From Micromonospora sp. WMMD1082 (GTDB lineage: Bacteria; Actinomycetota; Actinomycetes; Mycobacteriales; Micromonosporaceae): a stretch of 64,000 nt of DNA. Positions within the stretch are counted from its first letter, which is position 1. Every line of letters starts with the position of its first letter. The DNA is taken from contig NZ_JARUBM010000002.1 of NCBI RefSeq assembly GCF_029626175.1, forward strand, positions 7,234,501 through 7,298,500. Reading direction: 5' to 3'. A model generated the notes under the pieces. That model did no database searches, was not told where the DNA came from, and saw only the letters and a list, made by a program, of their open reading frames with translations. Of this stretch, positions 11,716 to 29,000 are shown piece after piece. A program made the position numbers and the translations under genes.

Positions 11716-12948
11716 TCACTGTCCTGGATGGACGTTTCGCTCTCGGTCGGGGTACGCCGTCGGGCTCCTGTCGCCGCGCGGCGCCCGCTGTCGCGGTGCC
11801 GCGCCTCCCGGCGCACCGCCCGGCGCCGGTGGTCGTGGTGATCCGCCCCGCGCCACCCGGGGCGGGGCCAGCCGGCGCATCATCGGTTGTTCCACGAAGC
11901 GGTGCAGCAGCGCGGCCAGCGCGAGGGTGAGCAGGAGGAAGCCGATCACGGCCGGCGGACCCCACCAGCCGGGCAGACCGGTCCCCCAGTCGCCGGTGAG
12001 CCGCAGGATCGTCGTGATCACGAACACGTGCACCAGGTAGAAGGCGAAGGAGACCTCGCCGAGCCAGACCATCGGGCGCGAGCGCAGCGGCGAGCGCCGC
12101 CCGTGCACGTCGGCGTCCGCCGCCGCGGCGATGACCAGGACGTACGCCACCGACAGCAGCGCCGCCCAGAACTCGGCCCGGATCCACTGGGAGGCCGCCA
12201 CCCAGGTCGCAACGAAGATCAGACTGGCCAGCGGGAGCCGAGGCCCCCGCCAGCGCCCGCGCAGCATGAGTTCGGCCGCGGCCACGCCCATCCAGAACTC
12301 CAGCGACCGGACCAGCGGAAAGACCTGGGTGAACCACCAGCGACTCTGCTCCGGCACCAGCGTCTGCCCGGGCCAGAGCGCCAGGATCAGCAGCGGCACC
12401 GCGATCACCACGGCCCACAGCATCCACGGCCGGGCCCGCCGCACCGCCGGCAGCGCCAGCGGCAGGCACAGGTAGAAGAACAGCTCGCAGGAGAGCGACC
12501 AGCTCACGTTGTTGACGCTGTAGAAGTGGCCGGGCCGGGGATCCCAGGCCTGCACCAGGAAGAGGTTCTCCAGCGCGGCCACGGGATTGATCGGATCGGC
12601 GAACCAGAGCATCGCCAGCATGGCCAGCGCCCACATCACCACGTGGTTCGGGTAGATCTTGGCGAACCGGCGCCGCCAGAACCGGCGCCGGGAGTCACCG
12701 GGCCGGGCCGACCAGACCAGCACGAACCCGCTGAGGATGAAGAAGAACTGCACCCCCGACAGGCCCAGGGTGAAGATCTCGCCGACCACCGCCTGCGGGC
12801 CGGGCTCGGCGATGATCCGCATGGTGCCGGCGTGGAAGCCGAAGACCAGCAGCGCGGCCACCCACCGCAGGCCGGTCAGCGACGGCAGTCTGCTCGCGTC
12901 GCCACGTCCGACGCCGGGAGCCTGTCGATCGGCGGCGGTGCTGGTCAT
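11716..12948 (-). CDS. Acyltransferase-3 (OafA/YrhL-like) membrane protein
   Basis: 410 residues with about ten hydrophobic segments. LPSLTGLRWVAALLVFGFHAG at the N-terminus carries the family histidine, and FFFILSGFVLVWS with the following RRRFAKIYPNHVVMW is the classical Acyl_transf_3 signature. Members transfer acyl groups, usually acetyl, from the cytoplasmic side to extracytoplasmic sugars. At the edge of the pseudaminic-acid locus it is the best candidate for O-acylation of the glycan. The C-terminal ~50 residues are basic and disordered. It is divergent from the pyruvyltransferase gene. Confidence 0.88.
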   Translation of the reverse strand: MTSTAADRQAPGVGRGDASRLPSLTGLRWVAALLVFGFHAGTMRIIAEPGPQAVVGEIFTLGLSGVQFFFILSGFVLVWSARPGDSRRRFWRRRFAKIYPNHVVMWALAMLAMLWFADPINPVAALENLFLVQAWDPRPGHFYSVNNVSWSLSCELFFYLCLPLALPAVRRARPWMLWAVVIAVPLLILALWPGQTLVPEQSRWWFTQVFPLVRSLEFWMGVAAAELMLRGRWRGPRLPLASLIFVATWVAASQWIRAEFWAALLSVAYVLVIAAAADADVHGRRSPLRSRPMVWLGEVSFAFYLVHVFVITTILRLTGDWGTGLPGWWGPPAVIGFLLLTLALAALLHRFVEQPMMRRLAPPRVARGGSPRPPAPGGAPGGAAPRQRAPRGDRSPTAYPDRERNVHPGQ

Positions 12949-13149: not shown

Positions 13150-14487
13150 ATGCACCAGCGGATCCTGATGCGGGCCCGGCAGGACCCGTTCGAGGTCAAC
13201 TCCCCGGAGGAGACGTTCGACCGGAACCTGATCGGTGACAACGTGGGCAACCTCGTGTTCAGCCACGCCGCACACAAGCTGCTGGGTACCGCCACCGCCA
13301 AGGTCACCTCCAACCGCTTCACGATCAATGCCCGCGCGGCGGACCGGATCAACGAGCAGTACGACGTGTTCGTCGTGCCGCTGGCCAACGCCTTCCGGCG
13401 CAGCTACGCGCACCGACTCGACGCGATGAGCGCGCTCATCGAGCGGCTCAAGATCCCAGTCGTGGTGCTCGGGGTGGGCGCGCAGACCAACGTCGACGGC
13501 GACCGGGAATACATGCGGCCGATCGACGAGCCGGTCACCCGCTTCTGCCGCGCCGTCCTCGACCGCTCACACAGCATCGGCGTCCGCGGCGAGATCACCG
13601 CCGACTATCTGCGTACGCTCGGCTTCTCCGATGTCGACGTGATCGGCTGCCCTTCGATGTTCCTGCACGGCGACACCCTGCCGGTGGAGAAGCGCAAGCC
13701 CGCCATCGGGCCGGACGACCGGATCGCACTGACCGTCTCGCCGTACGTGAAGTCGATGGCGAAGATCATTGAGGCGCACCACCGGCTCTATCCCAACCTG
13801 CGCTACATCCCGCAGGATCTCAAGACGCTGGGCACCCTACTCTTCGGCGATGCGCCGGAGGACCGGGGCAAGACCAGCAAGATCCCGATCCACACCTCGC
13901 ACCCGCTCTTCACCGAGGACAAGGTGCGGATGTTCGTCGACCCGTGGACCTGGATCGACTACCTGACCGGCTTCGACTTCAACTTCGGCACCCGCATTCA
14001 CGGCACCATCGTCTCGCTGCTGGCCGGCACGCCCGGCTACCTGTTCGCCCACGACTCCCGCACCCTGGAGTTGGCGCGGTACTTCGAGATCCCGCACCGG
14101 ATGATGCGGGACGTGCCGGCGGACGTCGACGCCGCACAGCTCTACGCCGAGGCCGACTACACCGGGATGGTCACCGGTCACAAGGCGCGGTTCGAGACGA
14201 TGCTGGCCTTCCTCGCCAAGCACGACCTGGGCAACTCCTTCGCCGACGGGGACAGCCCGGCGATCTTCGACGCCCAGGTCCGCGCCACCACCTTCCCACC
14301 GGTCGTCCGGCCGGCGCTGGCCACCGCGCCCGAGACGCTGGTACAGCGCATCCAGTGGCTGCGCGACCGGGAGGCCACGTTCCGCGAGCAGGCCGTGTCC
14401 CAGAGCCAGTCGGTACGCACGGAGCGGATCCGTACCCGGATCAAGAAGGCCGTCCCCGCACCGGTACGCCGCATGCTGAACCGTTAA
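13150..14487 (+). CDS. Polysaccharide pyruvyl transferase family protein
   Basis: From ATG 13150 the protein is 445 residues. NLIGDNVGNLVFSHAAHKLLG at the N-terminus, IPVVVLGVGAQTN, SIGVRGEITADYLRTLGF and the later FNFGTRIHGTIVSLLAGTP are the conserved blocks of the PS_pyruv_trans family, with the key RxHG motif. These enzymes use phosphoenolpyruvate to make pyruvate ketals on polysaccharide sugars. The last ~30 residues are a basic helix (RIRTRIKKAVPAPVRRM), a tail also seen on glycan-locus proteins here. It opens the rightward part of the surface-glycan locus. The open frame continues upstream to 11887, but that part is antisense to the acyltransferase. Confidence 0.88.
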   Translation: MHQRILMRARQDPFEVNSPEETFDRNLIGDNVGNLVFSHAAHKLLGTATAKVTSNRFTINARAADRINEQYDVFVVPLANAFRRSYAHRLDAMSALIERLKIPVVVLGVGAQTNVDGDREYMRPIDEPVTRFCRAVLDRSHSIGVRGEITADYLRTLGFSDVDVIGCPSMFLHGDTLPVEKRKPAIGPDDRIALTVSPYVKSMAKIIEAHHRLYPNLRYIPQDLKTLGTLLFGDAPEDRGKTSKIPIHTSHPLFTEDKVRMFVDPWTWIDYLTGFDFNFGTRIHGTIVSLLAGTPGYLFAHDSRTLELARYFEIPHRMMRDVPADVDAAQLYAEADYTGMVTGHKARFETMLAFLAKHDLGNSFADGDSPAIFDAQVRATTFPPVVRPALATAPETLVQRIQWLRDREATFREQAVSQSQSVRTERIRTRIKKAVPAPVRRMLNR

Positions 14488-14576: not shown

Positions 14577-15803
14577 GTGGTCATTGAGCAGACGCCAGCG
14601 CCGCTGCTGAGCATCGTCGTGCCGGTGTACGGCGTCGAGGCGTACCTGCGGCAGTGTCTGGACTCGATCCACAGCGACATCCCGGCCGGTGAGGTGGCCT
14701 CGGTGGAGGTCGTCGCCGTCGACGACGCCTCGCCGGACCGGTGCGGTGAGCTGCTGCGCGGGTACGCCGCCGAGCACCCCGGGGTGCGGGTGCTGCACCT
14801 GGAGAGCAACGTCGGCCTCGGGCCGGCCCGCAACGCGGGCCTGGACGTGGCCACCGGGCGGTACGTGTGGTTCGTCGACAGCGACGACTGGCTGCCACCG
14901 GGCACGATCGCGGCCGTGCTGGAGCGGCTGCGCGCCGACCGCCCGGACGTGATGATGGTCGACCACCTGCGGGTGCACGAGGGCGGGCGCCGGGAGGTGG
15001 ACGCCAGCAGCCGGTTGCTGCGCGGGGCCACCGGCGTGGTGCGGCTGACCGACCGCTCGCAGCTGCTGCGGGTGCAGCACACCGCCTGGAACAAGGTGGT
15101 ACGCCGGGAGTTCATGGCCGAACTCGGCCTGCGCTTCCACCCCGGCTGGTACGAGGACATCCCGTTCAGCCATCCGCTGCTGATCGGCGCCGAGCGGATC
15201 TCCGTGCTCGACCGGGTCTGCTACCTGTACCGCCAGGGCCGTCAGGGAGCCATCACCTCCACGCGCAGCGGCCGGCACTTCGACTCCTTCGCGCAGTACG
15301 ACCGGCTGTTCGCCTGGCTGCGCCAGCGGCACCCCGACGGGCGCTGGCACGCTGAGCTGTTCGCGCTGATGGTGAACCACTTCCTGGTGGTGGTGGGCAA
15401 CGACGACCGGCTGCACCCGCACCTGCGCAAGGGCTTCTTCCGCCGGGCGGCGGCGCACTACCGCAGGTACCTGCCGAGCGGCGGCTATCCTCGCCCGGGC
15501 GGGGTGGCCGGGCTCAAGCACCGGCTGGTCGGCCGGAACAACTACCTGGCCTACGCGGCGCTGCGGCGGACCCACCGGGCCACGGCCCGGCTCCGTTCCC
15601 CGGCCACGCCGGCCAGCCCGGCCACGCCGACCGCCCCGACCGACTCGACCCCGCCGGCATCCCCGACCGACTCGGCCCTGCCGGCATCCCCGGCTGACTC
15701 GGCCGCCCCGGGCGCCGCATCGACCCCGACGACCGGTGCCGGCACCGAGCCGGACACCACGCACCACAGGCTGGTGCAGACACACGGAAACGGATCGCAA
15801 TGA
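14577..15803 (+). CDS. Family 2 glycosyltransferase with PT-rich tail
   Basis: 408 residues from the GTG at 14577. LLSIVVPVYGVEAYLRQCLDSI opens the GT-A fold. VVAVDDASPDRC and WFVDSDDWLPPG supply the nucleotide- and metal-binding acidic residues (DDAS and the DSDD version of DxD). RRTHRATARLR ends the fold, and the last ~70 residues are imperfect repeats rich in Pro, Ala, Ser and Thr. It likely transfers a nucleotide-activated sugar to the glycan in the cytoplasm. The pseI start overlaps its stop by four bases, so the two genes are translationally coupled. Confidence 0.88.
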   Translation: MVIEQTPAPLLSIVVPVYGVEAYLRQCLDSIHSDIPAGEVASVEVVAVDDASPDRCGELLRGYAAEHPGVRVLHLESNVGLGPARNAGLDVATGRYVWFVDSDDWLPPGTIAAVLERLRADRPDVMMVDHLRVHEGGRREVDASSRLLRGATGVVRLTDRSQLLRVQHTAWNKVVRREFMAELGLRFHPGWYEDIPFSHPLLIGAERISVLDRVCYLYRQGRQGAITSTRSGRHFDSFAQYDRLFAWLRQRHPDGRWHAELFALMVNHFLVVVGNDDRLHPHLRKGFFRRAAAHYRRYLPSGGYPRPGGVAGLKHRLVGRNNYLAYAALRRTHRATARLRSPATPASPATPTAPTDSTPPASPTDSALPASPADSAAPGAASTPTTGAGTEPDTTHHRLVQTHGNGSQ

Positions 15804-16849
15804 CGACGCTGAAGATCGGCCCACACCTGGTCGGCGCCGGGGAGCGCCCCTTCGTGGTGGCCGAGATGTCCGGTAACCACAACGGTGACCTGGGGCGCGC
15901 CCTGGCCATCGTGGACGCGGTGGCGGCCAGTGGTGCGCACGCGCTGAAGCTCCAGACGTACCGGCCGGACACGATCACCATCGACGCCGACACCCCGGCC
16001 TTCCGCATCTCCGGCGGGCACGAGCTGTGGGGCGGGCAGAACCTCTACCAGCTCTACGAGCGCGCCCACACGCCGTACGAGTGGCACGGGCCGATCTTCG
16101 AGCGCGCCCGCGATCGGGGGCTGACGGTCTTCTCCTCCCCGTTCGACGCCACGGCGGTGCGGCTGCTGGAGGAGCTGGGCGCGCCGGCGTACAAGATCGC
16201 TTCGTCGGAGCTGGTCGACCTGCCGCTGATCGGCCTGGTCGCCGCCACTGGCAAGCCGATGATCATCTCCACCGGGATGGCCACGCTGGCCGAGATCGAC
16301 GCCGCCGTACGCACCGCGCGCGACGGCGGTGCGGGCAGGATCGTGCTGCTCGCCTGCACCGCCTCCTACCCGGCGCCGCCCGCCGACAGCAACCTGCGCC
16401 GCATTCCGGTGCTGTCCGAGGCGTTCGGCGTGCCGGTCGGCCTCTCCGACCACACCCCGGGCATCGGCGTGCCGGTCGCCTCGGTGGCGCTCGGCGCCTG
16501 CTTCATCGAGAAGCACGTCACGCTGGACCGCGCCGACGGCGGCGTGGACTCCGACTTCTCCCTGAACCCCGCCGAGCTGGCGGCCCTGGTGGTCGAGTCG
16601 GAGCGGGCGTACGCGGCGCTCGGCGGCACGGCCGTCGGGCCGACCCCGGCCGAGCAGGAGGGCCTGCGCTTCCGGCGCTCGCTCTACGTGGTGGCGGACG
16701 TGCGGGCCGGCGACGAGGTCACCGCACACAACGTCCGGTCGATCCGCCCCGCCGGCGGCCTCCCCCCGGTCGAGATCACCCGCGTGCTCGGCCGCCGTTT
16801 CACCACCGACGTCCCCCGCGGCACCCCCCTCACCTGGAACCTGATCTAA
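15800..16849 (+). CDS. pseI: Pseudaminic acid synthase (NeuB family)
   Basis: 349 residues. FVVAEMSGNHNGDLGRALAI, HALKLQTYRPDTITI, TVFSSPFDATAVRLLEELG and YKIASSELVDLPLI are characteristic NeuB/PseI barrel motifs. IEKHVTLDR carries the conserved His and Lys, and a SAF/antifreeze-like domain closes the C-terminus (RSLYVVADVRAGDEVT). The enzyme condenses 2,4-diacetamido-2,4,6-trideoxy-L-altrose with PEP. The MSGNHNG variant and the presence of pseB, pseC, pseG and pseH in the same locus favour pseudaminic over sialic acid. The ATG overlaps the glycosyltransferase stop. Confidence 0.9.
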   Translation: MTTLKIGPHLVGAGERPFVVAEMSGNHNGDLGRALAIVDAVAASGAHALKLQTYRPDTITIDADTPAFRISGGHELWGGQNLYQLYERAHTPYEWHGPIFERARDRGLTVFSSPFDATAVRLLEELGAPAYKIASSELVDLPLIGLVAATGKPMIISTGMATLAEIDAAVRTARDGGAGRIVLLACTASYPAPPADSNLRRIPVLSEAFGVPVGLSDHTPGIGVPVASVALGACFIEKHVTLDRADGGVDSDFSLNPAELAALVVESERAYAALGGTAVGPTPAEQEGLRFRRSLYVVADVRAGDEVTAHNVRSIRPAGGLPPVEITRVLGRRFTTDVPRGTPLTWNLI

Positions 16850-16922: not shown

Positions 16923-17369
16923 TCAGGGTGGGGTGGGGGCGAAGGCGACGGTTATCACGAGGTTGGTCAGGGGCAGGGTGCGCCATAGCCAGACGGTGCC
17001 GGGTGGCACCTCCAGGCCGTGCCGCTGCCACCAGATCGCCACCGGGACGTCGGCGAGCTTGGCCAGGCACTCGACGCGGGTCCACCGGGCCCAGAAGTCC
17101 GTGGCGCCGAACCGGCGAACCAGCGCGGTGGGCAGCGGGGCGTCGGCACGCTCGGCGTCTACCGCGACCCGCCAGCCGGGCACCGGCGGCGCGTACCAGC
17201 CGACGCAGCGCCCGTCGCCGAGGTGACTGCGGGTGACCGCGCCGCCGGAATCGGCCACCGGCGCCACCCGCAGGTGTCGTGGTGCGCCGGCGAGCAGGAC
17301 CGGCACCCGTTGTCCCGCGCCAGCGTCGGCGCGGGACAACCGGGGCGGGGTGTCAGATCGAGGCGGCAC
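16923..17369 (-). CDS. Possible 4'-phosphopantetheinyl transferase-like protein
   Basis: 148 residues. GWRVAVDAERADA resembles the metal-binding motif of Sfp-type transferases (GVDVE). FWARWTRVECLAKL resembles the later catalytic block (F-x-x-x-W-T-x-K-E-A-x-x-K), though the usual Lys-Glu is Val-Glu. It is shorter than typical Sfp enzymes (over 200 residues). It ends a minus-strand run with an SDR, an AMP-ligase and an acyl carrier protein, so activating that carrier protein by adding phosphopantetheine is the obvious role. The 17-bp overlap with the SDR gene suggests coupling. Family assignment is inference from two motifs plus context. Confidence 0.5.
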   Translation of the reverse strand: MPPRSDTPPRLSRADAGAGQRVPVLLAGAPRHLRVAPVADSGGAVTRSHLGDGRCVGWYAPPVPGWRVAVDAERADAPLPTALVRRFGATDFWARWTRVECLAKLADVPVAIWWQRHGLEVPPGTVWLWRTLPLTNLVITVAFAPTPP

Positions 17370-18111
17370 CGTCGACCACGATGACCTGGCCGTTGATGTT
17401 CGTCTGGTCGCGCAGCAGCATCCGCACCACCGGCACGACCTCGTCCGGCTCGGTCAGGTGACCGGTCGGGGTGCGGCGCACGATCTGGTCCAGCTGGGTC
17501 TGGCCGAGCACCGCCGACATCTCCGAGGCGAAGAAGCCCGGCGCGACGGCGTTGACCAGCACCCGCCCGCCCAGCTCGCGGGCCAGCGACCGGGTCGCCG
17601 CGTCCATCCCGCCCTTGGTGGCGGAGTACGCGACCAGGCCCGGAAACCCGCGCTGCGCACAGATCGAGGTGATGTTGACGATCCGGCCCCGGCGGCCCTG
17701 GCCCAGCATTCGCCGTACGGTCAGCCGGGTGAGCTGCAACGGCGCGGTCAGGTTGGTCTCGATGATCCGGGCGATGTCGCCGGTGGCCGTGTGCACGTGC
17801 AGCGAGTCCTGCCCGACGGCCGCGTTGTTCACCACACCGTCGATCGGCCCGAGCCGCTCCTCCGCCGCCCGGACGAACGCCTGCGCGGCGGCGAGGTCGG
17901 TGACGTCGACCGAGCCGACGTGCGCCCGCTCCGGATGGGCGTCGGCGAGCTTGGCCAGCTCGGGGGTGACGGTACGGGCGAAGGCGGCCACCTTCAGGCC
18001 CATGTCGAGCAGGTCGGTGACGATGGCCAGGCCGAGGCCGCGTGATCCGCCGGAGACGAGCACCACGGAGGACGGCGGGACGGGCGGCGGAGGGGTGACG
18101 GGGTCAGACAT
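17353..18111 (-). CDS. FabG-like short-chain dehydrogenase
   Basis: 252 residues with a complete classical SDR set: LVSGGSRGLGLAI for NAD(P) binding, NNAAVG, a catalytic serine in NITSICAQRG, and YSATKGGMDAATRSLA as YxxxK. VNAVAPGF and NGQVIVVDGAAS are typical of FabG, 3-oxoacyl-ACP reductase. With an acyl carrier protein and an AMP-ligase in the same run, reduction of a carrier-bound 3-oxoacyl group is likely. Direct action on a nucleotide sugar is the alternative. Its start overlaps the end of the ligase gene. Confidence 0.85.
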   Translation of the reverse strand: MSDPVTPPPPVPPSSVVLVSGGSRGLGLAIVTDLLDMGLKVAAFARTVTPELAKLADAHPERAHVGSVDVTDLAAAQAFVRAAEERLGPIDGVVNNAAVGQDSLHVHTATGDIARIIETNLTAPLQLTRLTVRRMLGQGRRGRIVNITSICAQRGFPGLVAYSATKGGMDAATRSLARELGGRVLVNAVAPGFFASEMSAVLGQTQLDQIVRRTPTGHLTEPDEVVPVVRMLLRDQTNINGQVIVVDGAASI

Positions 18112-19411
18112 CGCTCTTCAGGGTCTCCTTGACGGGAATCTCGGTCAGTAGGCGGATCCGGCGCGGCACCGCGTACTCGGGCAACCGGTCGGCGCACCAG
18201 CGCACCAGCGCCGCCTCGTCGAGCGCCGTGCCGTCGAGCGCCGGCTGCGGCCGCTGCTGCGGGTCGGTCGGCGTCGCGGCCGCACCGGAGACGGTCGGCA
18301 CCACGTCGGCGACGACCATGTGGCCGAGCAGCGGGGCACGGCGGCCGGTGACCCGCGCCCAGGCCACTCCCGGGTGGGCGGTCAGCACGTCGCGGACTCC
18401 CCCGGCGGACACCTTGCTCCCGCCGACGTTGATCTCGTCGGCGTCGAGGCGCCCGCTGATCAGCACCCGGTCGCCGACCAGCTGCGCCCGGTCGCCGGTG
18501 CGGACCGGGCCGTCCAGCCCGGCACCGTGGTACGGCGAGGTGATGACCAGCTCCCCGTCGCGTACCCCGATGGCGGGACGGCCGGGCGCCGCCCGGTCCA
18601 GCCACTCGACCGGGAACCCGGCCCGTCCGTCGTGCACCACGATCGCCGCACCGACCTCGGAGGAGGCGTAGATCCAGGAGATCCGGGCGGCCGGGAACAT
18701 CTCCCGCAGTCGGTCCAGGATCGCCTGGTCCACCGGTTCGCCGCCGAGGGTCACCTGGCGCAGCGGCACCCGGGCGAGGGCGGCCGGGTCGCGGTGCAGG
18801 GCCCGCCGCCAGAAGGTGGGCGTACCGGAGGCGGCATCCACGCCGTGCTCGGCGGCCAGCGCCGGCCAGTCGTCCAGCTGCTCCGGCTCGACCACCACCA
18901 GGTGCTGCCCCGCCTGGGTCAGCGAGAGCGTCACCACCTGCCACCAGGCGTACGTGCCGGGGGCGTACGGGCAGAGCCAGGTGCGTCCGGGCTGCTGGCC
19001 ACGGACGGTGGTCAGCGATTCGAGGGTGTGCCCGACCCGCTTGGGCCGGCCGGTGGAGCCGGAGGTCAGCAGCCACAGGCGGCCGGGTTCGGCCGGACGC
19101 GCCCGGGTCGGCGCGGTCTCCCCGCCCACCTCGGCGCCGAGGTCGGTGACGACGAACCCGGCGTCGCGCAGCTCCGCCCGCATCGCCGGGTCGACCCGGC
19201 CGGCCGCGCTGATCAGCAGCTCGGTGCCGTGCACGGCGTGCTGGCGGGCGGCGGCGAGCGCGTACCGGGCCGAGTGGGCGAGCGCCGCGGCGGGCGCGGG
19301 CAGGGTCAGCTGCGGCAGGTCGCGCCAGGTCAGCGTCGCACCGTCGACGACGATCCGGTTGTCCGCGCCGGCCGGGTGGGCGGCGGCCGGCGGGGCGGTC
19401 TCCACGCTCAC
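18104..19411 (-). CDS. AMP-dependent synthetase/ligase (ANL superfamily)
   Basis: 435 residues. LWLLTSGSTGRPKRVGHT is the phosphate-binding A3 motif. WIYASSEVGAA corresponds to the A5 region and VRTGDRAQLVGDRVLISGRLDADEINVGG to A7/A8. The C-terminus ends PVKETLKSDV, with the lysine that drives adenylation. It is shorter than typical 500-550-residue members, mainly at the N-terminus. It probably adenylates a carboxylic acid and loads it onto the carrier protein encoded immediately upstream, with which it overlaps by four bases. The substrate cannot be read off. Confidence 0.85.
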   Translation of the reverse strand: MSVETAPPAAAHPAGADNRIVVDGATLTWRDLPQLTLPAPAAALAHSARYALAAARQHAVHGTELLISAAGRVDPAMRAELRDAGFVVTDLGAEVGGETAPTRARPAEPGRLWLLTSGSTGRPKRVGHTLESLTTVRGQQPGRTWLCPYAPGTYAWWQVVTLSLTQAGQHLVVVEPEQLDDWPALAAEHGVDAASGTPTFWRRALHRDPAALARVPLRQVTLGGEPVDQAILDRLREMFPAARISWIYASSEVGAAIVVHDGRAGFPVEWLDRAAPGRPAIGVRDGELVITSPYHGAGLDGPVRTGDRAQLVGDRVLISGRLDADEINVGGSKVSAGGVRDVLTAHPGVAWARVTGRRAPLLGHMVVADVVPTVSGAAATPTDPQQRPQPALDGTALDEAALVRWCADRLPEYAVPRRIRLLTEIPVKETLKSDV

Positions 19412-19659
19412 TGGTGCTGCAGCTCGACGAGGAAGTCCAGCACGTCGCCGACGGTGGCGATCCGGCGCAGCCCGGGAGCGTCGAAGTTCAGCTCCTCCCC
19501 CGTCTCGTCCTCGACCCGCAGCGCCAACTCGGAGAAGTCCAGCGACCGGAAGCCGACCTCCCGCAGATCGGCGGCATCGTCGGCGGGCAACACCTTGCCC
19601 TGGTTCTTGAGAACCTGGCCCATGAGGTCGCGAATCTGCGCACGACTCAATTCCTTCAT
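19408..19659 (-). CDS. Acyl carrier protein
   Basis: 83 residues, with the four-helix ACP pattern. LREVGFRSLDFSELALRVEDETG holds the phosphopantetheine serine, Ser39. The usual aspartate before it (DSL) is replaced by arginine (RSL), a variant that would affect partner-enzyme recognition. It is the first gene of the ACP-ligase-SDR-PPTase run, divergent from pseH with only 27 bp between the two starts. It is likely dedicated to a surface-sugar acylation step rather than to housekeeping fatty-acid synthesis. Confidence 0.85.
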   Translation of the reverse strand: MKELSRAQIRDLMGQVLKNQGKVLPADDAADLREVGFRSLDFSELALRVEDETGEELNFDAPGLRRIATVGDVLDFLVELQHQ

Positions 19660-19686: not shown

Positions 19687-20247
19687 GTGATTAGGGTGCC
19701 CGGTGACCAGGTAAACGAAGCGGAAAGCGAGCGGTACGTGCTGCGTGACGCCATCGAGGATGACGTTAACCTGATGTTGTCCTGGCGTAATCAGGACATC
19801 AACCGGCAGGTCAGCAAGACCAGCCATGTCATCACTCCCGAGGAGCACGGACGCTGGTGGTCGGCGGTGCGTGCCGACCCCACCCGCCAGGTGCTGACCT
19901 ACCTGCGCGACGGGGTGCCCAGCGGCGTGGTCACCTTCTTCGACCTGCGCTTGGACGGGCCGCGTACCGGTTCGTGGGGCTTCTATCTGGACGGCGACGG
20001 GTTGGCCGAGCGGGGTGAGACGCTGCCCGCCTGGCTGGAGGTCATGCGGGAGGCGGTGGACCACGCCTTCGACGTGCTGGCACTGGAACGACTCGACGGT
20101 GAGGTGCTCGCCCACAACACCGTGGTGCGCCAGATGAACCGACGGTTCCGTTTTGTCGAGGGCCCCGGCCGCCAGGAGACGCACGACGGCCGGGAAATCA
20201 CCGTCATCCCCATTTCGCTGGAGCGCGCCAGCCGCCGCGTTCGCTGA
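19687..20247 (+). CDS. pseH: Pseudaminic-acid pathway N-acetyltransferase (GNAT)
   Basis: 186 residues starting at GTG. YVLRDAIEDDVNLMLSWRNQDINRQV, then EHGRWWSAVRADP, then GVVTFFDLRL and WGFYLDGDG follow the GNAT fold as found in PseH. That enzyme acetylates the 4-amino group of UDP-4-amino-4,6-dideoxy-N-acetyl-altrosamine. LERLDGEVLAHNTVVRQMNRRFRFV is the usual C-terminal acetyl-CoA region. It is monocistronic on the plus strand but divergent from the carrier-protein operon. An acyl donor other than acetyl-CoA is possible given that neighbour, but this is inference. Confidence 0.82.
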   Translation: MIRVPGDQVNEAESERYVLRDAIEDDVNLMLSWRNQDINRQVSKTSHVITPEEHGRWWSAVRADPTRQVLTYLRDGVPSGVVTFFDLRLDGPRTGSWGFYLDGDGLAERGETLPAWLEVMREAVDHAFDVLALERLDGEVLAHNTVVRQMNRRFRFVEGPGRQETHDGREITVIPISLERASRRVR

Positions 20248-20313: not shown

Positions 20314-22074
20314 TCACCCGCGCCGCCAGGCGGCCCATTTCCGCTCCGGGTCCCCGCCGAGGCGGACGAAGCCGTGGCGGGCACCGTCCCAGTCGCCGCG
20401 CTCGCCGGGCGCCCAGCGCGCGAAGACCACCTGGGCCGTGGCCGGCGGCCGGTCGGTGAACCAGGGCACCTCGGTCCAGGTGACCTGGTGGCTGAGGTTG
20501 TACCGCAGTTGGTAGGGCACGCCGGTGGCGGCGGCGACCCGGTCGGCGGGGCCGATCCCGAGGTCGGCCACGCTGGGCGTGGGTGTGCCGGCGACCGCCA
20601 GCGGACGGATCAGCCGCTGCACGATCGCCTGCATGGTCGCCACGTTGGCCACGACCAGCGCCGTGAGCACGACCGCGAGCAGACCCACCCGCGCCCGCCG
20701 GTGCCGGGCCGCGAGCACGACCACGAACAGCAGGCAACCGGCGATCCCGATCGCGGCACCGACCAGCGGCCGCAGCTGTTCCCCACCACCGGTCAGGACC
20801 GCCAGATCCGGCGCGCTGAACCCGCCGTAGCGCAACTCCGCGCCGCGCGCCGCCGCACGTGCCAGGCGTACGTGGATCAGGGCGCCGCCGGCAGCGAGCA
20901 GCACCACCGTCACGGCGGCACGACGCAGCAACGACCGGTACGCCGTGCCGAACAGCAGCCCGACGCCGACCAGCAACCAGAACGGGGCGAGCATCTGCAC
21001 GTACCGGGCGTAGATGGCGTCCGGCACCCGGTCCGGGACACCCGCGAGGACGACCTCCGCGCCGACGGCGACCCCGACGGTGGTCAGCAGCGCCACCCCG
21101 AGGGTCCACCTGGCGGCCTCGGCGCCCCCGCGACACAGCCGCGTCACGGCCTCGACACCGGCCAGCCCGGCCAACCCGAAGGTGATCACCATCAGGTACC
21201 ACAGCTGGGTGCCGGTGGACGCCAGCACCTGCGACAGCCCCCGGCCGGAGGTGACGGCCCGCAGGGCATTGCCGTCGGCGGGGCTGCCGAGCAGCTGGAT
21301 CGTGTCGCCGAGCAGCCGCACCCCGACCTCGTTGCCCACCGCCGCGGCCAGCACCGGCAGCGTCGCCGCCAGCATCCCGGCCGGGGCCAGCCGGCGACGC
21401 ACGACCAGGGCCAGCGTCAACGCGGCGTACGCGGCGACGACCACCACCCCGCGCGAGTGCACCAGGTGGCAGGCGCCGGCGAGCGCGCCCCCCACCGCCA
21501 CCGCGACCGGGCCGGGCCGCTCGATCACCCGGTGCACGGCCAGCAGCCAGGCCAGCAGCAGCGGGGCCAGCACCGCGTCGGTCATCGCCACCGTGGCGTG
21601 GTAGGCCGCCGCCGGCAGCGTCGCCGCCGCGACGGCCGCCACCAGGGCCGGTCCGGGCCGTAGCCCCAGCAGCCGGCGGCCGAGCAGGTACGCCAGCGGC
21701 AGGACGGTCGCGTTCACCGCCGCGTTGATCAGCCGTACGAGCAGGTAGCTGTCGACGAAGTCCCGGTCGCCCAGGAAGGCCGGCGCGATCAGCAACGGGT
21801 AGCCGATCCGGCGCAGCGTCTCGTTCTCGCTGCTGAAGCCGCCGGGACCGCCGGCCAGGGCACGGGCGGTGAACAGGTAGCTGTCCTCGTCGGTGTGCGC
21901 GAACGGCATGCCGGCGTGACGGGCCAGCCAGATCCGCCAGGCCACCCCGAGCAGCCAACCGCATCCGAGCAGCACCGGAAGCAGCCACCGCCGGCGGGCC
22001 GGCCCCGCCGGCCCACCCGCGTCCCCGACCCGGGCCACCTCGGCCGCCACGACCATCGTTTCCCTCCACCCCAC
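20314..22074 (-). CDS. Integral membrane glycosyltransferase-like (GT-C) protein
   Basis: 586 residues with roughly ten or more hydrophobic segments. The first extracytoplasmic loop reads MPFAHTDEDSYLFTARAL, an acidic D-E-D cluster where GT-C glycosyltransferases (ArnT/GT39/GT87 type) carry their catalytic aspartate. RRIGYPLLIAPAFL follows. The C-terminal ~100 residues are soluble. Such enzymes use polyprenyl-phosphate sugars on the outer face of the membrane. Its position inside the pseudaminic-acid locus supports a role in glycan assembly. An internal ATG seven codons in is an equally good start. Confidence 0.72.
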   Translation of the reverse strand: MGWRETMVVAAEVARVGDAGGPAGPARRRWLLPVLLGCGWLLGVAWRIWLARHAGMPFAHTDEDSYLFTARALAGGPGGFSSENETLRRIGYPLLIAPAFLGDRDFVDSYLLVRLINAAVNATVLPLAYLLGRRLLGLRPGPALVAAVAAATLPAAAYHATVAMTDAVLAPLLLAWLLAVHRVIERPGPVAVAVGGALAGACHLVHSRGVVVVAAYAALTLALVVRRRLAPAGMLAATLPVLAAAVGNEVGVRLLGDTIQLLGSPADGNALRAVTSGRGLSQVLASTGTQLWYLMVITFGLAGLAGVEAVTRLCRGGAEAARWTLGVALLTTVGVAVGAEVVLAGVPDRVPDAIYARYVQMLAPFWLLVGVGLLFGTAYRSLLRRAAVTVVLLAAGGALIHVRLARAAARGAELRYGGFSAPDLAVLTGGGEQLRPLVGAAIGIAGCLLFVVVLAARHRRARVGLLAVVLTALVVANVATMQAIVQRLIRPLAVAGTPTPSVADLGIGPADRVAAATGVPYQLRYNLSHQVTWTEVPWFTDRPPATAQVVFARWAPGERGDWDGARHGFVRLGGDPERKWAAWRRG

Positions 22075-22332: not shown

Positions 22333-23316
22333 TTGAGCGAGCTGAACGGATCGTCCATCCTCGTCACCGGGGGAACAGGTTCCTTCGGCAGGACCTTCCT
22401 GCGGCACCTCCTCGCCGAGACCGATCCGGCCCGGGTGGTGGTCTTCTCCCGTGACGAGCTCAAGCAGTACGAGCTGCGCCAGCAGCTCGGCGACGACCCC
22501 CGGCTGCGCTGGTTCATCGGCGACATCCGGGACCGGCACCGGCTGACCCGGGCCATGCACGGGGTCGACCACGTCGTGCACGCCGCCGCCCTCAAGCAGG
22601 TCGACACGGCCGAGTACAACCCCTCGGAGTTCATCGCCACCAACATCACCGGCTCCCAGCACGTCGTGGACGCGGCGATCGAGGCCGGGGTGAAGAAGGT
22701 CGTCGCCCTCTCCACCGACAAGGCGTCCAGCCCGATCAACCTCTACGGCGCGACCAAGCTGGTCGGCGACAAGCTGTTCATCTCGGCCAACCACTACGCG
22801 GCCCATCACCCGACCCGGTTCGCGGTGGTGCGCTACGGCAACGTGGTCGGCAGCCGCGGTTCGGTGGTGCCGCTGTTCCGCCGGCTCGCCGCCGAGGGCA
22901 AGAGCCTGCCGATCACGGACAAGCGGATGACCCGCTTCTGGATCACGCTGGAGCAGGCCGTGCAGTTCGTCATCGACTCGTTCGACCAGATGCAGGGCGG
23001 CGAGCTGTTCGTGCCGCGCATCCCCAGCATGCGCATCCTCGACCTGGTCGAGGCGGTCGCCCCGGACGCCACCACGCACGAGATCGGCATCCGGCCGGGC
23101 GAGAAGCTGCACGAGGAGATGATCGCCCCCGACGACAGCCGGCGGACGCTGATCGCCGAGGACCGCTTCATCGTGCAGCCGACCATCGCCACCTGGGGCT
23201 ACCAGCCGCCGGCCGGCTGCGAGCCGGTGCCGGACGGCTTCGCGTACCAGTCGGACTCCAACGACGAGTGGCTCACCGTGCCGCAACTGCGCACGATGCT
23301 CGGCATCGCGGCATGA
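22333..23316 (+). CDS. pseB: UDP-GlcNAc 4,6-dehydratase (inverting)
   Basis: 327 residues starting at TTG with GGGAG upstream. SILVTGGTGSFGRTFL binds NADP. VVHAAALKQVDTAEYNP and LSTDKASSPINLYGATKLVGDKLF are diagnostic of PseB/FlaA1-type dehydratases; the latter holds the YxxxK pair. PGEKLHEEM near the end is typical. The enzyme makes UDP-2-acetamido-2,6-dideoxy-beta-L-arabino-hexos-4-ulose, the first step towards pseudaminic acid. It starts a rightward operon (pseB, pseC, a GT-like gene, a methyltransferase-like gene, pseF, pseG) with small gaps or overlaps. Confidence 0.93.
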   Translation: MSELNGSSILVTGGTGSFGRTFLRHLLAETDPARVVVFSRDELKQYELRQQLGDDPRLRWFIGDIRDRHRLTRAMHGVDHVVHAAALKQVDTAEYNPSEFIATNITGSQHVVDAAIEAGVKKVVALSTDKASSPINLYGATKLVGDKLFISANHYAAHHPTRFAVVRYGNVVGSRGSVVPLFRRLAAEGKSLPITDKRMTRFWITLEQAVQFVIDSFDQMQGGELFVPRIPSMRILDLVEAVAPDATTHEIGIRPGEKLHEEMIAPDDSRRTLIAEDRFIVQPTIATWGYQPPAGCEPVPDGFAYQSDSNDEWLTVPQLRTMLGIAA

Positions 23317-23338: not shown

Positions 23339-24496
23339 ATGAGTTCCATGCTCCCGTACGGCCGCCAGTCGGTGACCGAGGACGACGTCGCCGCGGTGGT
23401 TTCCGTGCTGCGCGGCGACTGGCTCACCACCGGCCCGGAGGTCGCCGCCTTCGAGGCGGAGCTGTCCGCCTGGGCCGGCGGCGCCGGGGTGGCCACGGTC
23501 TCCAACGGCACGGCGGCGCTGCACGTGGCGTACGCGGCGGCCGGCGTCGGCCCGGGCGACGAGGTGATCGTGCCGCCGATGACGTTCGTGGCCACCGCCA
23601 GCAGCGCCGTGGCGCTCGGGGCCACCGTCGTCTTCGCCGACGTGACGGAGGAGACCTTCACCCTCGACCCGGCGGCGGTGGCCGCGGCGACCACCGAGCG
23701 GACGAAGGTCGTCGCCGCGGTGGACTACGCCGGCCACCCGGCCGACTACGACGCACTGCGCGCCGCGCTCGACGGCAGCGACGCGTTGCTGCTCGCCGAC
23801 GCCGCCCACTCGATCGGGGCCACCTACCGGGGCCGGCCGGTCGGCTCGCTGGCCGATCTGACCACGTTCTCGTTCTTTCCCACCAAGAACCTGACCACCG
23901 CCGAGGGCGGTGCGGTCGCCACCACCGACCCGGAGCTGCTCACCCGGGCCCGCCGGTTCCGCAACATCGGGCTGGTCCGGGAGCCCGCCGAGTGGCGCTG
24001 GCCGGACGAGGGCGGCTGGCACCAGGAGGTGCACGAGTTCGGGCTGAACTACCGGCTGCCCGACGTGCTCTGCGCGCTCGGCCGCAGCCAGTTGCGCCGC
24101 CTCGGTGACTTCCTCGCCCGCCGGGCCGAGCTGGTCGCCCGCTACGACGAGGCGCTGGCGGACCTGCCCGGCGTGCTGACCCCGGGCCGGCGGGACTGGG
24201 CGGCGCCGGCCTGGCACCTGTACCCGATCCGGGTGCTCGACGGCCGCCGCCGCGAGATCTACGACCGGATGCGCGCCGCCGGTATCGGGGTCCAGGTCAA
24301 CTACATCCCCGCGCACTGGCACCCGGCCTTCGCCGACCTCGGCTACCGGCGCGGCAGTTGTCCCGTATCGGAGGCCTTCTACGCCCAACAACTCTCGCTG
24401 CCCCTCTACCCTGGACTACGCGACGCCGACCAGGACCGCGTCATCGACGCGCTGGCCGCGGCCCTGCGCGGCGCCTCGGTTCGCTCCGCCGCCTGA
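23339..24496 (+). CDS. pseC: PLP-dependent aminotransferase, pseudaminic pathway
   Basis: 385 residues of the DegT/DnrJ/EryC1 family. MLPYGRQSVTEDDVAAVVSVL opens it, VIVPPMTFVATASSAVALG and DAAHSIGATYRG follow, and FSFFPTKNLTTAEGG contains the PLP-binding lysine. FGLNYRLPDVLCALGRSQL and VNYIPAHWHP complete the PseC pattern. It transfers an amino group to C4 of the PseB product. It follows pseB after 22 bp. Confidence 0.93.
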   Translation: MSSMLPYGRQSVTEDDVAAVVSVLRGDWLTTGPEVAAFEAELSAWAGGAGVATVSNGTAALHVAYAAAGVGPGDEVIVPPMTFVATASSAVALGATVVFADVTEETFTLDPAAVAAATTERTKVVAAVDYAGHPADYDALRAALDGSDALLLADAAHSIGATYRGRPVGSLADLTTFSFFPTKNLTTAEGGAVATTDPELLTRARRFRNIGLVREPAEWRWPDEGGWHQEVHEFGLNYRLPDVLCALGRSQLRRLGDFLARRAELVARYDEALADLPGVLTPGRRDWAAPAWHLYPIRVLDGRRREIYDRMRAAGIGVQVNYIPAHWHPAFADLGYRRGSCPVSEAFYAQQLSLPLYPGLRDADQDRVIDALAAALRGASVRSAA

Positions 24497-25343: not shown

Positions 25344-27229
25344 CAACCGAGACGGTGCCGGCGGTGGCGCTGCCCGGCGGCGAGATGCTCGCCTGGTCCG
25401 ACCAGCGCGACGGGGCCGGCAACGGGCCGCTCGCGGCGCTGGCGGCGCACCTGGTGCCGGACGGCGCCCGGGTGCTGCTGGCCGGGCCGCACGACCCGGC
25501 GCTGCTCGACGCGCTGGCCCACGCCCGGCTCACCTGTTTGCTGCGCGGCTACCCGGACGCGGCGGCGATCGCCGGTCGGGTGGACCGGGTGCTGGTGGCC
25601 GGCCCGCACGGCCTGCCCCCCGGCGAGGAGTACGACGTGGTGATCGCCGGCGCCGGGCTGGACGCCGTCGAATCGGTGGAGGGCGCCCGGCTGGGCTGGG
25701 ACGGCCTGCTGGCCCGCCTGGTGGCGGCCGTGCGGCCCGGCGGCGACCTGCTGCTGCGGGTGGACAACCCACTCGGCGTGCACCGGCTGGTCGCCGCCTC
25801 CGGCTGGTACGCCGGTCGGGGCGACGCCGAGTGGACGGTCGGCGGGGTGCTCGACGCGGCCCGCCCCGCCAACCTGGAGCAGGCGCGCGCCCGGCTGGCC
25901 GCCGTCGGGATGCGGGCCGGCACCGGCTACGCCGCGTACCCGCGTCCGGAGCTGACCACCGCGCTGCTCGCGGTCGACCAGCTGTCCCGGCGGACCACCT
26001 CCGGGCTGTTCGACGCGGTCCTGCACGACGCCTGCACCGAGGGGTTCACCGGCCAGTTCGTGCTCGCCGATCCGGCCCGGTTGGCCGTGGACGCGCTGCA
26101 CGCCGGCCGCGCCGCCGACCTGGCCCCGTCCTGGCTGGTGCACGCCCGCCGGCCGGCCGCCACCGAGGTGGCCGACGACATGCCGACCACCGGCTCGCCC
26201 GTCACCGGCCCCTCGGCAACCGCCGGGGTGGCCGGCGACCCGGCAGCCGGGGACGCGCTGCCGGTGGCGCTGGTGCGGGCCGGCGGACCGGGCAGCGACG
26301 TCGTCGAGGTGCGCGACGGGCCGCAGGGCTGGCACTGGCACCGCACCGACGGCGACCGTCGTACCGGGCCGGTGCCCGCGCCGTACGCCAGCCGGGAGGC
26401 CGCCTACCGCGACCCGGAGGCACCGCACGGGCCGGTGCCCGACGGGCGCCTGCTGCGCAGCCTGCTGCTCGACGGCTGCCTGCGCCGCGACACCGTCCTG
26501 CTGCGCCGGCTGCTGCGCGGGTACGCCGACTGGCTCGCCGGCCAGGCCGAGCAGGGCCGGCTCACCGGCGCGGTGGCGCTGGCCGGGGCGGACAACCTGG
26601 TCGTCGCCGGTGACCGCTACGCGGTGCTCGACCCGACCTGGCGGGCCGACGCCCCGTTACCGGTCGACGTGGTGCTGGCCCGGACCCTGTGGCGCTTCGC
26701 CACCGAACTGCTCACCGGCGGGTACGCCCACCCGTGGGTCTCCACCCTGGACGTCGCGGGGCTGACCGTGGTGCTCGGCGGAGTCGCCGGGCGAGACTTC
26801 GACCGGGAGGTCGTCGACGCGGCGGTGGAGACGGAGGCCGCGGTGGGTGCCGCGCGGCGCGGGCTGGACGCGGCCGGGCGGATCGACCTCGACACCGAAC
26901 TGCGCGCGGTCACGCCGACCGACCCACCGCCCGGCCCCCACAGCTACCAGCAGCTACGCGAGGCGTGGCGGCGCCAGCGGGACGAGAACACCCGGCTGAG
27001 CGCGCTGCTCAAGTGGACCGAGGACCTACTCACCTCGCGCGAGCGCGCCCTGCGCCGAGCCGAGGCGAAGATCAATCTGCTCAGCGGCTCGCTGAGCTAC
27101 AAGGTCGGCCGGCTCGCCATCACCCCGGCCCGGATGGCCAGCCGGGGTGCCCGGGCCGCCAAGCGCCGGGCCCGCGCGGCGATCACCGCCCGCCGACAGG
27201 AGCACCCGAAGCAGGAGGATCGGACGTGA
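25340..27229 (+). CDS. Methyltransferase-like fusion protein with C-terminal coiled coil
   Basis: 629 residues from the GTG at 25340. The N-terminal ~230 residues look like a degenerate class I methyltransferase (VLLAGPHDPALLDAL, YDVVIAGAGLDAVESV, AAVRPGGDLLLRVDNP). The middle part (about 330-540) contains LVVAGDRYAVLDPTWRAD and repeated Arg/Leu helices and is not recognised. The last ~90 residues form a coiled coil and basic helix (RRAEAKINLLSGSLSYKVGRLA), a tail common on actinobacterial glycan-assembly proteins. It overlaps the genes on both sides by four bases. A role in methylating or capping the pseudaminic glycan is inference. Confidence 0.6.
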   Translation: MTTETVPAVALPGGEMLAWSDQRDGAGNGPLAALAAHLVPDGARVLLAGPHDPALLDALAHARLTCLLRGYPDAAAIAGRVDRVLVAGPHGLPPGEEYDVVIAGAGLDAVESVEGARLGWDGLLARLVAAVRPGGDLLLRVDNPLGVHRLVAASGWYAGRGDAEWTVGGVLDAARPANLEQARARLAAVGMRAGTGYAAYPRPELTTALLAVDQLSRRTTSGLFDAVLHDACTEGFTGQFVLADPARLAVDALHAGRAADLAPSWLVHARRPAATEVADDMPTTGSPVTGPSATAGVAGDPAAGDALPVALVRAGGPGSDVVEVRDGPQGWHWHRTDGDRRTGPVPAPYASREAAYRDPEAPHGPVPDGRLLRSLLLDGCLRRDTVLLRRLLRGYADWLAGQAEQGRLTGAVALAGADNLVVAGDRYAVLDPTWRADAPLPVDVVLARTLWRFATELLTGGYAHPWVSTLDVAGLTVVLGGVAGRDFDREVVDAAVETEAAVGAARRGLDAAGRIDLDTELRAVTPTDPPPGPHSYQQLREAWRRQRDENTRLSALLKWTEDLLTSRERALRRAEAKINLLSGSLSYKVGRLAITPARMASRGARAAKRRARAAITARRQEHPKQEDRT

Positions 27230-27960
27230 CCGAGCGAATCGTCGGGATCGTGCAGGCCCGGATGGGATCGTCCCGGCTGCCCGGCAAGGTGCTGCGGCCC
27301 CTGGCCGGGCGCAGCGTGCTCGGGCGGGTGGTCCGGGCCGCCCAGGACAGCGGCGTGCTCGCCGACCTGGTGGTGGCGACCAGCACCGATGCCACCGACG
27401 ACGCGGTCGTCGCCGAGTGCGACCGGCTCGGGGTCGCCTGGCACCGGGGTCCGGTCGACGACGTGCTGACCCGCTACGTCGGCGCGCTCGACACCCACCC
27501 GGCCGACGCGGTCATGCGGTTCACGGCCGACTGCCCGCTGCTGGACCCGGAGATCGTCACGCTGGTCGCCTCGGTGTACCGCGCTGTGCCGGGGCTGGAC
27601 TACGCCAACACGTCGATCGCCCGTACCCTGCCGCGCGGGCTGGACGTCGAGATCATCCGGGCGGCCGCCCTGCGTACCGTGGACCGGCTCGCCACCGACC
27701 ACCACCGGGTGCACGTCACCTCGTACGCGTACGCCCACCCGGAGCTGTTCCGGGTGCTCGGCGTGACCGTCACGCCGGACCGCTCGCACCTGCGACTCAC
27801 CCTGGACACCGAGCGTGACTGGGAACTGGTCAACGCGGTGGTCGACCACTTCGGCGACGTCAGCGTGCCGCTGGCCAAACTCGCCGACTGGCTCGACGGA
27901 CAGCCGGGGCTGCGCGCGCTCAACGCCGACGTGCGGCAGAAGCAGTTGGAGGAATGCTGA
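27226..27960 (+). CDS. pseF: SpsF/PseF-type cytidylyltransferase
   Basis: 244 residues from GTG 27226. VGIVQARMGSSRLPGKVLRPLAG is the nucleotide-binding signature of the SpsF-type CTP_transf_3 family. MRFTADCPLLDPEIV holds the metal-binding aspartate. LPRGLDVEIIRAAAL and LRLTLDTERDWELV are conserved SpsF blocks. In pathways of this layout it activates pseudaminic acid as CMP-Pse. The motif is ARMGSSRLPGK rather than the RxGSKRIPxKN usual in Campylobacter PseF and NeuA. The symbol is assigned by pathway completeness. Confidence 0.78.
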   Translation: MTERIVGIVQARMGSSRLPGKVLRPLAGRSVLGRVVRAAQDSGVLADLVVATSTDATDDAVVAECDRLGVAWHRGPVDDVLTRYVGALDTHPADAVMRFTADCPLLDPEIVTLVASVYRAVPGLDYANTSIARTLPRGLDVEIIRAAALRTVDRLATDHHRVHVTSYAYAHPELFRVLGVTVTPDRSHLRLTLDTERDWELVNAVVDHFGDVSVPLAKLADWLDGQPGLRALNADVRQKQLEEC

Positions 27961-29000
27961 GCACGGTACGCGTCGGACTGCGCTGCGACGCCGGGCCGCT
28001 ACGCGGCGTCGGGCATCTGGTCCGCTGTCTCGCCCTCGGCGAGGAGTTCCTGGCCCGGGGCGCCTCGGTCGAGGTCTTCGGGACGGTGGCCGGTGTCGAC
28101 TGGGCGACCGGGCAGCTCGCCGCCCGGGGCCTGCCGCTGCACCCCGGCCCGGACACCCCGGCGGGGCTGGTCGAGGCGGCCCGCCGGCACCGGCTGGACG
28201 TGCTGGTCCTCGACTCGTACGAGCTGGATCCGGCCGCGGCCGGCGCGCTGCGCGCCGCGGGCGTACTGACCCTGACCATCGTCGACGGCGACACCCGGGG
28301 GCAGGACGCCGACCTCTACCTCGACCAGAACTTCGGCACCGACCTGGCGGTGCCGGCGCGCCGGCTGCTGGCCGGCAGCGGGTACGCCCTGCTGCGCGAC
28401 GGCGTACTGGCCGCCCGGCCGGCGACCGCCCGGCCGGCGGTGGAGGTGGACCGCCCCTCGGTGCTGGCCTTCTTCGGCGGCACCGACGCGGCCGGCGCGG
28501 CACCGCTGCTGACCGAGATACTGCTGTCGACCGGCCGGCCGATGGAACTCACGGTCGTCGCCGGCCGGCCCGAGGTGGCCGCCCGGCTGGCCCGGCTGGC
28601 ACCGGGGCCCGGGCAGGCGCTGCTGCCGGTGCCCCCCACCGGCACGCTGCCGGCCCTGATCGCCGCCGCCGACCTGGTGGTCAGCGCGGCCGGCACGTCG
28701 ACCTGGGAACTGTGCTGCCTCGGTGCGCCCTCGGCGCTGGTCTGCGTGGTGGACAACCAGCGCGAGTCGTACCACCGCGTGGTGGCGGCCGGGCTGGTCG
28801 CCGGGCTCGGTGAGCTGCCCGCGCTCGCCGCCGACGGTGCCGCCGGCGCCGCCGCCCGGCGCGTCCTCGACGGGCTGTTGGGCAGCGGGGCACAGCGGGC
28901 GGCGCTGTCCGCGCGGGCCTGGGCGGCGGTGGACGGGCGCGGCCGGCAACGAGTGGTCGACGCGGTGCTCGACGCGCTCACCCACCAGCAGGTCGCCTAG
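27954..29000 (+). CDS. pseG: UDP-2,4-diacetamido-trideoxy-altropyranose hydrolase
   Basis: 348 residues. RCDAGPLRGVGHLVRCLALGEEF is the N-terminal signature of PseG with the catalytic histidine of GxGH. VLVLDSYEL, LDQNFGTD and LAFFGGTDAAGAAPLL follow. The GT-B-like C-domain contains VVSAAGTSTWELCCLGAP and VDNQRESYH. The enzyme removes UDP from the PseH product. The ATG overlaps the pseF stop. The final codon and stop lie inside the left inverted repeat of the 169-bp palindromic element, so the original 3' end may have been altered by its insertion. Confidence 0.9.
   Translation: MLSTVRVGLRCDAGPLRGVGHLVRCLALGEEFLARGASVEVFGTVAGVDWATGQLAARGLPLHPGPDTPAGLVEAARRHRLDVLVLDSYELDPAAAGALRAAGVLTLTIVDGDTRGQDADLYLDQNFGTDLAVPARRLLAGSGYALLRDGVLAARPATARPAVEVDRPSVLAFFGGTDAAGAAPLLTEILLSTGRPMELTVVAGRPEVAARLARLAPGPGQALLPVPPTGTLPALIAAADLVVSAAGTSTWELCCLGAPSALVCVVDNQRESYHRVVAAGLVAGLGELPALAADGAAGAAARRVLDGLLGSGAQRAALSARAWAAVDGRGRQRVVDAVLDALTHQQVA

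Follow-up and report, generated by a model that had tools for sequence, protein, structure and literature searches.

An acyl carrier protein cassette in pseudaminic acid loci of Micromonospora and other Actinobacteria pairs with one type of PseH

A 64,000-nucleotide stretch of the Micromonospora sp. WMMD1082 genome (Actinomycetota; Micromonosporaceae; NZ_JARUBM010000002.1, positions 7,234,501 to 7,298,500), here called the window, contains a pseudaminic acid (Pse) locus and within it a four-gene cassette for an acyl carrier protein (ACP), an ANL ligase, a FabG-like short-chain reductase (SDR) and a protein resembling 4'-phosphopantetheinyl transferases (PPTases). The genome is 7.44 Mb in size, and the closest homologues of the window ligase were from Micromonospora and Verrucosispora. 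The cassette forms a minus-strand operon running from 19659 to 16923 in which every gene overlaps the next, ACP and ligase by 4 bp, ligase and SDR by 8 bp, and SDR and PPTase-like gene by 17 bp. This operon, with pseI on one side and pseH on the other, had been described in the initial annotation and was confirmed. The genes concerned are:

15800..16849, plus strand: PseI, pseudaminic acid synthase (TIGR03586, 455.5 bits, above cut-off)
16923..17369, minus strand: compact PPTase-like protein, 148 aa (motif residues, model and fold searches)
17353..18111, minus strand: FabG-like SDR, 252 aa (PF00106/PF13561; tetrad Asn120-Ser149-Tyr162-Lys166)
18104..19411, minus strand: ANL (AMP-forming) ligase, 435 aa, presumed acid:carrier-protein ligase (PF00501 and PF13193 above cut-off; ANL fold)
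19408..19659, minus strand: ACP, 83 aa (PF00550, 24.5 bits against a cut-off of 20.8; attachment Ser39 in GFRSLDF)
19687..20247, plus strand: PseH-type GNAT N-acyltransferase of the Asn151 (cassette-linked) type, start uncertain (TIGR03585, 61.0 bits, below the cut-off of 93.1)

Further cassette loci were collected by a scan with the ligase alignment, and the best 80 of 123 loci were analysed: 40 from Micromonospora, 22 from a Kribbella group, in which one record has the title Streptomyces and the other 21 are Kribbella, and 18 others, which include Nocardioides, Actinoplanes, Knoellia and Propionicicella. The ACP was present in 78 of the 80, missing from L062, whose piece begins within the ligase gene, close to the end of a contig, and from L093. 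The SDR was found in all 80 by threshold, that of L093 being a mere 30% paralogue. PseH was present in 74 loci and the PPTase-like gene in 57, and 69 loci had PseI on the fetched piece itself. Eight genomes behind the 11 pieces that lack PseI were searched whole, and PseI was found in seven and was absent from the genome of L093. Altogether PseI accompanies 76 of the 80 loci in piece or genome and is absent for one; the remaining three (L028, L039, L046) were covered as pieces only. The 4-bp overlap was kept at 75 of 78 junctions and the 8-bp overlap at 73 of 78. The ligase of L093 (10010-11233, Nocardioides marmoriginsengisoli) is a close homologue that ends in a TGK motif and adjoins a protein with family 2 glycosyltransferase (GT2) and glycerophosphotransferase domains. 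In L059 (6998-9274) and other Kribbella loci, a protein of 750-800 aa without a Pfam match is encoded on the opposite strand directly before the ACP; other neighbors of the Kribbella cassettes (GHL10, AAA/DUF4143 and FAD-binding genes in L059) looked unrelated and were set aside.

Across 150 genomes of the family, the ligase occurred in 10 and PseI in 34, and all 10 were within the 34 (hypergeometric 1e-7, kinship ignored). Among 396 genomes of the phylum, the three with the ligase were all among the 13 with PseI above cut-off. In Actinobacteria the cassette needs pse genes, with one exception, while pse genes do not need the cassette. These data support the earlier proposal that the activation, reduction and carrier set is dedicated and tied to pse genes, and the contrary expectation, that the block would lie mostly away from pse loci, was not borne out.

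The attachment Ser39 of the ACP was invariant in 79 of 79 sequences. The window ligase has the AMP-binding and C-terminal domains, the P-loop motif and the C-terminal Lys of ANL enzymes, and this residue, Lys432 near the C-terminus, was kept in 81 of 81 sequences (window included). The solved structures nearest to it by sequence include beta-aminoacyl-ACP synthetases and nonribosomal peptide synthetase (NRPS) adenylation proteins, and a second look by fold put prolyl-carrier ligases and DltA among the top rows, a mixture from which sequence does not name the acid substrate. The catalytic tetrad of the SDR was complete in 80 of 80 sequences; its score against TIGR01830 (FabG), 173.6 bits, is below the cut-off of 297.75, making it FabG-like rather than FabG. 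In the PPTase-like protein, Asp71, Glu73, Glu100 and Lys104 were invariant in 18 of 18 members, and we take this Asp-x-Glu, Glu and Lys to be the motif residues of the PPTase superfamily. The predicted model has a pLDDT of 91.5 and PPTases ranked top in fold searches; the PPTase profile PF01648 was matched by one of the 18 members, weakly (E 0.12), and no PPTase was among the PDB sequence matches.

The cassette pairs with one type of PseH. Among 151 Micromonospora genomes the ligase was found in 66, and PseH of the window type (277-414 bits) in exactly those 66, while 23 other genomes carried a second PseH group (107-145 bits) and none of these had the ligase. PseI above cut-off was found in 88 of the 151, comprising 65 of the 66 ligase-bearing genomes and all 23 of the second type. 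All 67 cassette-linked PseH sequences, those of the window and of 66 loci, had Asn at position 151, and all 14 cassette-free sequences, each with a PseI neighbor, had His. In a second set, whose Asn side overlaps the first, Asn was seen in all 18 sequences of that side and His in all 23 of the other. In a later check, all four cassette pieces of the family had Asn, two of these pieces being from species already counted, and each of 20 further PseH-like hits in family genomes that lack the cassette had His; some of those genomes gave no match to PseI. The residues Arg148 and Met150, which had told the 67-versus-14 set apart too, failed in the later check and were rejected as additional markers. 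The pairing held in Kribbella, where PseH is encoded ~4-7 kb away from the ACP, and the Asn type was kept across genera, also where kilobases separate the two genes. Travel of the cassette with one form of PseH suggests that this enzyme adds a non-acetyl group to the surface sugar.

In a profile alignment, position 151 of the window PseH falls on a Tyr of 4ri1 that fits Tyr138 of Helicobacter pylori PseH, taking an offset of 6 between the two numberings, under which Leu125-Glu126, Asn131, Lys133 and Ala134 align as well. Tyr138 is the putative general acid and Lys133 a contact of the CoA pyrophosphate in the available text of PMC4363471. Like the acetyl-CoA-dependent PseH (4ri1, 4xpk; H. pylori), the window protein is of the GNAT family, would by its locus position serve the same pathway step, and keeps the active-site Glu and Asn by alignment. 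It differs from them in having Asn for Tyr138, as do all 67 cassette-linked sequences at that column, and Val for Lys133. With a score below the cut-off of the TIGR03585 equivalog, it is PseH-type by locus position and best family match. An altered CoA loop was considered as a sign of ACP use and rejected, as the two PseH types looked alike there by eye. A separate observation concerns PseH-like GNATs in which Arg replaces the conserved Glu (RTLAWN), seen in L248-L254 and similar pieces from several family genomes without a PseI match.

Beyond PseH the pse genes continue to 29000, and further sugar genes lie on both sides of the cassette:

11716..12948, minus strand: acyltransferase-3 (AT3), judged not to be the cassette's partner (PF01757)
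13150..14487, plus strand: polysaccharide pyruvyl transferase-like protein (PF04230)
14577..15803, plus strand: GT2 (PF00535)
20314..22074, minus strand: membrane glycosyltransferase-like protein (PF13231, 26.2 bits against a cut-off of 26.1)
22333..23316, plus strand: PseB, UDP-GlcNAc 4,6-dehydratase (inverting) (TIGR03589, 490.2 bits, above cut-off)
23339..24496, plus strand: PseC-like aminotransferase (TIGR03588, 396 bits, below the cut-off of 423.5)
27226..27960, plus strand: PseF-like cytidylyltransferase (PF02348)
27954..29000, plus strand: PseG-like UDP-sugar hydrolase (TIGR03590, 123.2 bits, below the cut-off of 153.55)

Phylogenetic trees were used to count changes of the cassette label. 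In wide trees, PseH required one change (48 rows, SH-aLRT 99), PseI four (54 rows) and PseC four (30 rows). Within Micromonospora the counts were one for PseH (41 rows), one for PseI (43), two for PseB (43), five for PseC (43) and two for PseF (24). These counts indicate that PseH and the cassette move together, with PseI beside them in Micromonospora, and that mixing is greater among the other pathway genes. In Micromonospora part of the pairing can be put down to linkage, and in Kribbella less of it, given the distance between PseH and ACP there.

The Micromonospora loci with His-type PseH kept GT2, PseI, PseB and PseC in 23 of 23 and the pyruvyl transferase-like gene in 17 of 23. In 13 of the 23 (L215-L218, L220-L228; for example L222, 4001-8723), an ACP-SDR-ANL-LuxE-LuxC module fills the gap between pseI and pseB; L139 and L214 have an ACP only, L231 an ACP and an SDR, and seven none of these genes, so the reading of such loci as simply module-free was rejected. 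Eighteen other cassette-free 20-kb pieces of the family included four with the full LuxE-LuxC set, ten with none, three with ACP-SDR-ANL and no LuxE or LuxC match near the piece end, and one with LuxE-LuxC at the piece end. Neither LuxE nor LuxC was found in any of 88 window-type pieces (the 80 loci, L093 included, and eight more, some of the same species), and the cassette and the LuxE-LuxC module were never found together in them. His-type PseH occurs without a module in seven of 23 loci and the window type always with the cassette in the genus (66 of 66), so that the dependence is one-sided.

Related gene sets were also found outside Actinobacteria. A tblastn search of plasmids with the ligase gave 14 records, 12 from Azospirillum and one each from Qingshengfaniella and Haematobacter, of which 11 were examined. 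All nine Azospirillum records examined (two from strain Sp 7) encode a PseI with 58-59% identity and, in order, ACP, ANL, SDR and ketoacyl synthase III. These plasmid pse loci (for example L193 and L199) share with the window a homologous ACP-ANL-SDR order beside pseI, the aligned parts of the SDR having 47% identity and those of the ANL ligase 41%. They differ in having an additional ketoacyl-ACP synthase III, an alpha/beta hydrolase and a second small carrier-like protein, and the two annotated loci list no PPTase within 12 kb and run on into flagellin. In the two Rhodobacterales records the triplet comes after a hexapeptide-repeat acyltransferase, which indicates that ACP-ANL-SDR as such has no fixed tie to Pse; the Haematobacter record also has genes for an aminotransferase and an epimerase nearby. 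Every setting of ACP-ANL-SDR that was seen, except L093, was beside a pse locus or a sugar-type acyltransferase. The ligase frame of Haematobacter massiliensis (L201, 11110-12987), beside the hexapeptide acyltransferase, is 625 aa long and has extra N-terminal sequence.

The nitrogen on which PseH acts ends up as N7 of pseudaminic acid. The operon is probably, though by no means certainly, a dedicated and portable supply of acyl-ACP for a sugar N-acyltransferase, here the PseH of its own locus, giving Pse with an N7-acyl group other than acetyl. The PPTase-like protein would arm the ACP, and the ligase, judging from its family, would use ATP to activate and load a small free carboxylic acid. 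The SDR may then reduce a keto group on the bound acyl. PseH of the Asn151 type would take this acyl off the ACP, rather than acetyl off CoA, and place it on the 4-amino group of UDP-4-amino-4,6-dideoxy-AltNAc, and the final Pse would carry a non-acetyl group at N7. We infer both what acid is loaded and the use of acyl-ACP by PseH. The N7-acyl group would most likely be a short hydroxyacyl, and a reduced hydroxyacyl such as hydroxybutyryl is a plausible transferred group. A hydroxyacyl at N7 is chemically known, as Pse of Sinorhizobium fredii HH103 carries 7-(3-hydroxybutyramido) according to the available text of PMC9037385. Flagellin was rejected as the glycan target in this organism because no match to Flagellin_N was found in the window's own genome, and the Pse sugar probably goes to the wall or a surface glycan.

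A broader proposal is put forward tentatively, at somewhat less than even chances. A PseH subfamily may have given up acetyl-CoA to take its acyl group directly from a dedicated ACP, with Asn replacing the general acid as its mark, so that N-acylation of this nonulosonic acid would depend on an ACP; ACP-ANL-SDR may be a portable donor cassette whose partners have been sugar acyltransferases of both the GNAT and the hexapeptide kind; and Micromonospora may swap two rival acyl modules in one pse locus.

Several observations weigh against a dedicated supply to PseH. The presence of the LuxE-LuxC module with His-type PseH means that an ACP module alone does not demand the Asn type. PseH scores do not set the two types apart across the family, where the weakest cassette genome has 151 bits and the best cassette-free one 148.5. 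Position 151 is the one marker that holds, since Arg148 occurred in two of the 20 cassette-free hits and Ala or Gly at position 150 in three of the four cassette pieces of the later check. Within Micromonospora, adjacency would by itself lead to joint inheritance of PseH type and cassette, and PseI too requires a single change there. The PPTase-like gene is missing from 23 of the 80 loci, 19 of them in the Kribbella group, and the window's own genome holds five other PPTase matches. L093 has a ligase without ACP, SDR or PseH nearby, in a genome without PseI. The Azospirillum GNAT, supposing it to be a PseH, falls outside the Asn type, and PseI was not found within 12 kb of the two Rhodobacterales triplets.

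The acyl group may instead go elsewhere on the glycan, as an O-acyl on Pse or on another sugar, through AT3 or an unlinked transferase, with PseH merely hitch-hiking. The ACP start at 19659 and the annotated PseH start at 19687 are divergent and 27 bases apart, so the two genes would be co-inherited, and AT3 is present in 34 of the 40 Micromonospora cassette loci. However, AT3 was found in one of the 18 other cassette loci and in none of the 22 of the Kribbella group, and 15 of the 23 cassette-free Micromonospora loci have it. AT3 does not follow the cassette and was rejected as its partner, and the Asn type of PseH holds across genera and at a distance from the ACP. We regard transfer elsewhere on the glycan as unlikely; of the two acceptor routes proposed in the initial annotation, that through PseH is favored and that through AT3 is disfavored.

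A still smaller chance is given to loading of an amino acid by the ligase, with an N-aminoacyl Pse or an amino-acid-derived substituent as product. The aminoacyl and prolyl ligases, NRPS adenylation proteins and DltA among the solved relatives would fit this. The FD-type Asp, which presumably has a role in aminoacyl enzymes, falls in a gap of the ligase family (5jjq) or opposite Ala (8yyr), both by profile alignments alone. The conserved stretch around Tyr154-Gln158 appears to have no acid at that place, and a FabG-like reductase has no obvious task on an aminoacyl group. Very improbable is a relationship to the Aeromonas group II fatty-acid/aldehyde set that would serve a liposugar or some other glycan component rather than PseH chemistry: that set (ACP, 3-oxoacyl-ACP reductase, AMP-dependent synthetase, luxE and luxC) is read as a possible liposugar component in the available text of PMC7874193, and such a module is in the same locus of His-type Micromonospora, but the 88 window-type pieces lack LuxE and LuxC and the two modules were not found together.

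Returning to supply of PseH by the operon, carrier-ligase-reductase sets beside pse genes are already in print for Gram-negative flagellin islands, as far as the available texts go, and the earlier view that such a set is unusual in kind was not supported (PMC7874193; PMC4875605). In Aeromonas group II, the ACP, FabG-like reductase and AMP-forming synthetase adjoin pse genes downstream of pseH, as described in the part available. Unlike the window cassette, that set includes luxE and luxC and its target is flagellin; by gene set as described, and not by protein sequence, it is the second Micromonospora module that is likened to it. Enterobacteriaceae flagellin islands also have carrier, ligase and reductase genes, in a different set (Acp, LuxE, LuxC, CaiC and FabG), and the available text ties them to no general Pse context (PMC4875605). 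Kribbella walls contain teichuronic or teichulosonic acids, with Pse not named in the text available (PMC6113628). The open literature, most subscription journals being outside the search, gave no description of the cassette in Actinobacteria, of the PPTase-like gene in it or of the division of PseH into Asn and His types, and no structure of Pse in the walls of Kribbella or Micromonospora with its acyl groups identified.

Surface nonulosonic acids bear many unusual N-acyl groups, and how these are made and delivered is mostly not understood. The pairing of the cassette with Asn-type PseH, and of no module or the LuxC/LuxE module with the His type, connects genes to a residue and makes the N-acyl question testable with purified enzymes. 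In genomes, the Asn/His pairing could also serve as a marker that predicts which actinobacteria produce pseudaminic acid with a non-acetyl group. A lead from another system concerns mass, and the residue of diacetyl Pse is here taken to be 316.13. The Pse derivative of Aeromonas AH-3 is 376.14 Da in the available text of PMC7874193, ~60.01 above this and near C2H4O2, for example dihydroxybutyryl replacing acetyl, which is not evidence for the window locus.

Two genes of the window locus, at 24507-25343 and 25340-27229, have no Pfam match, and the first of them recurs in many pse loci, both those with the Asn type of PseH and those with the His type. Directly behind the locus is a gene of the 2OG-Fe(II) oxygenase family (30043-30678), followed by a gene for DNA gyrase/topoisomerase IV subunit A.

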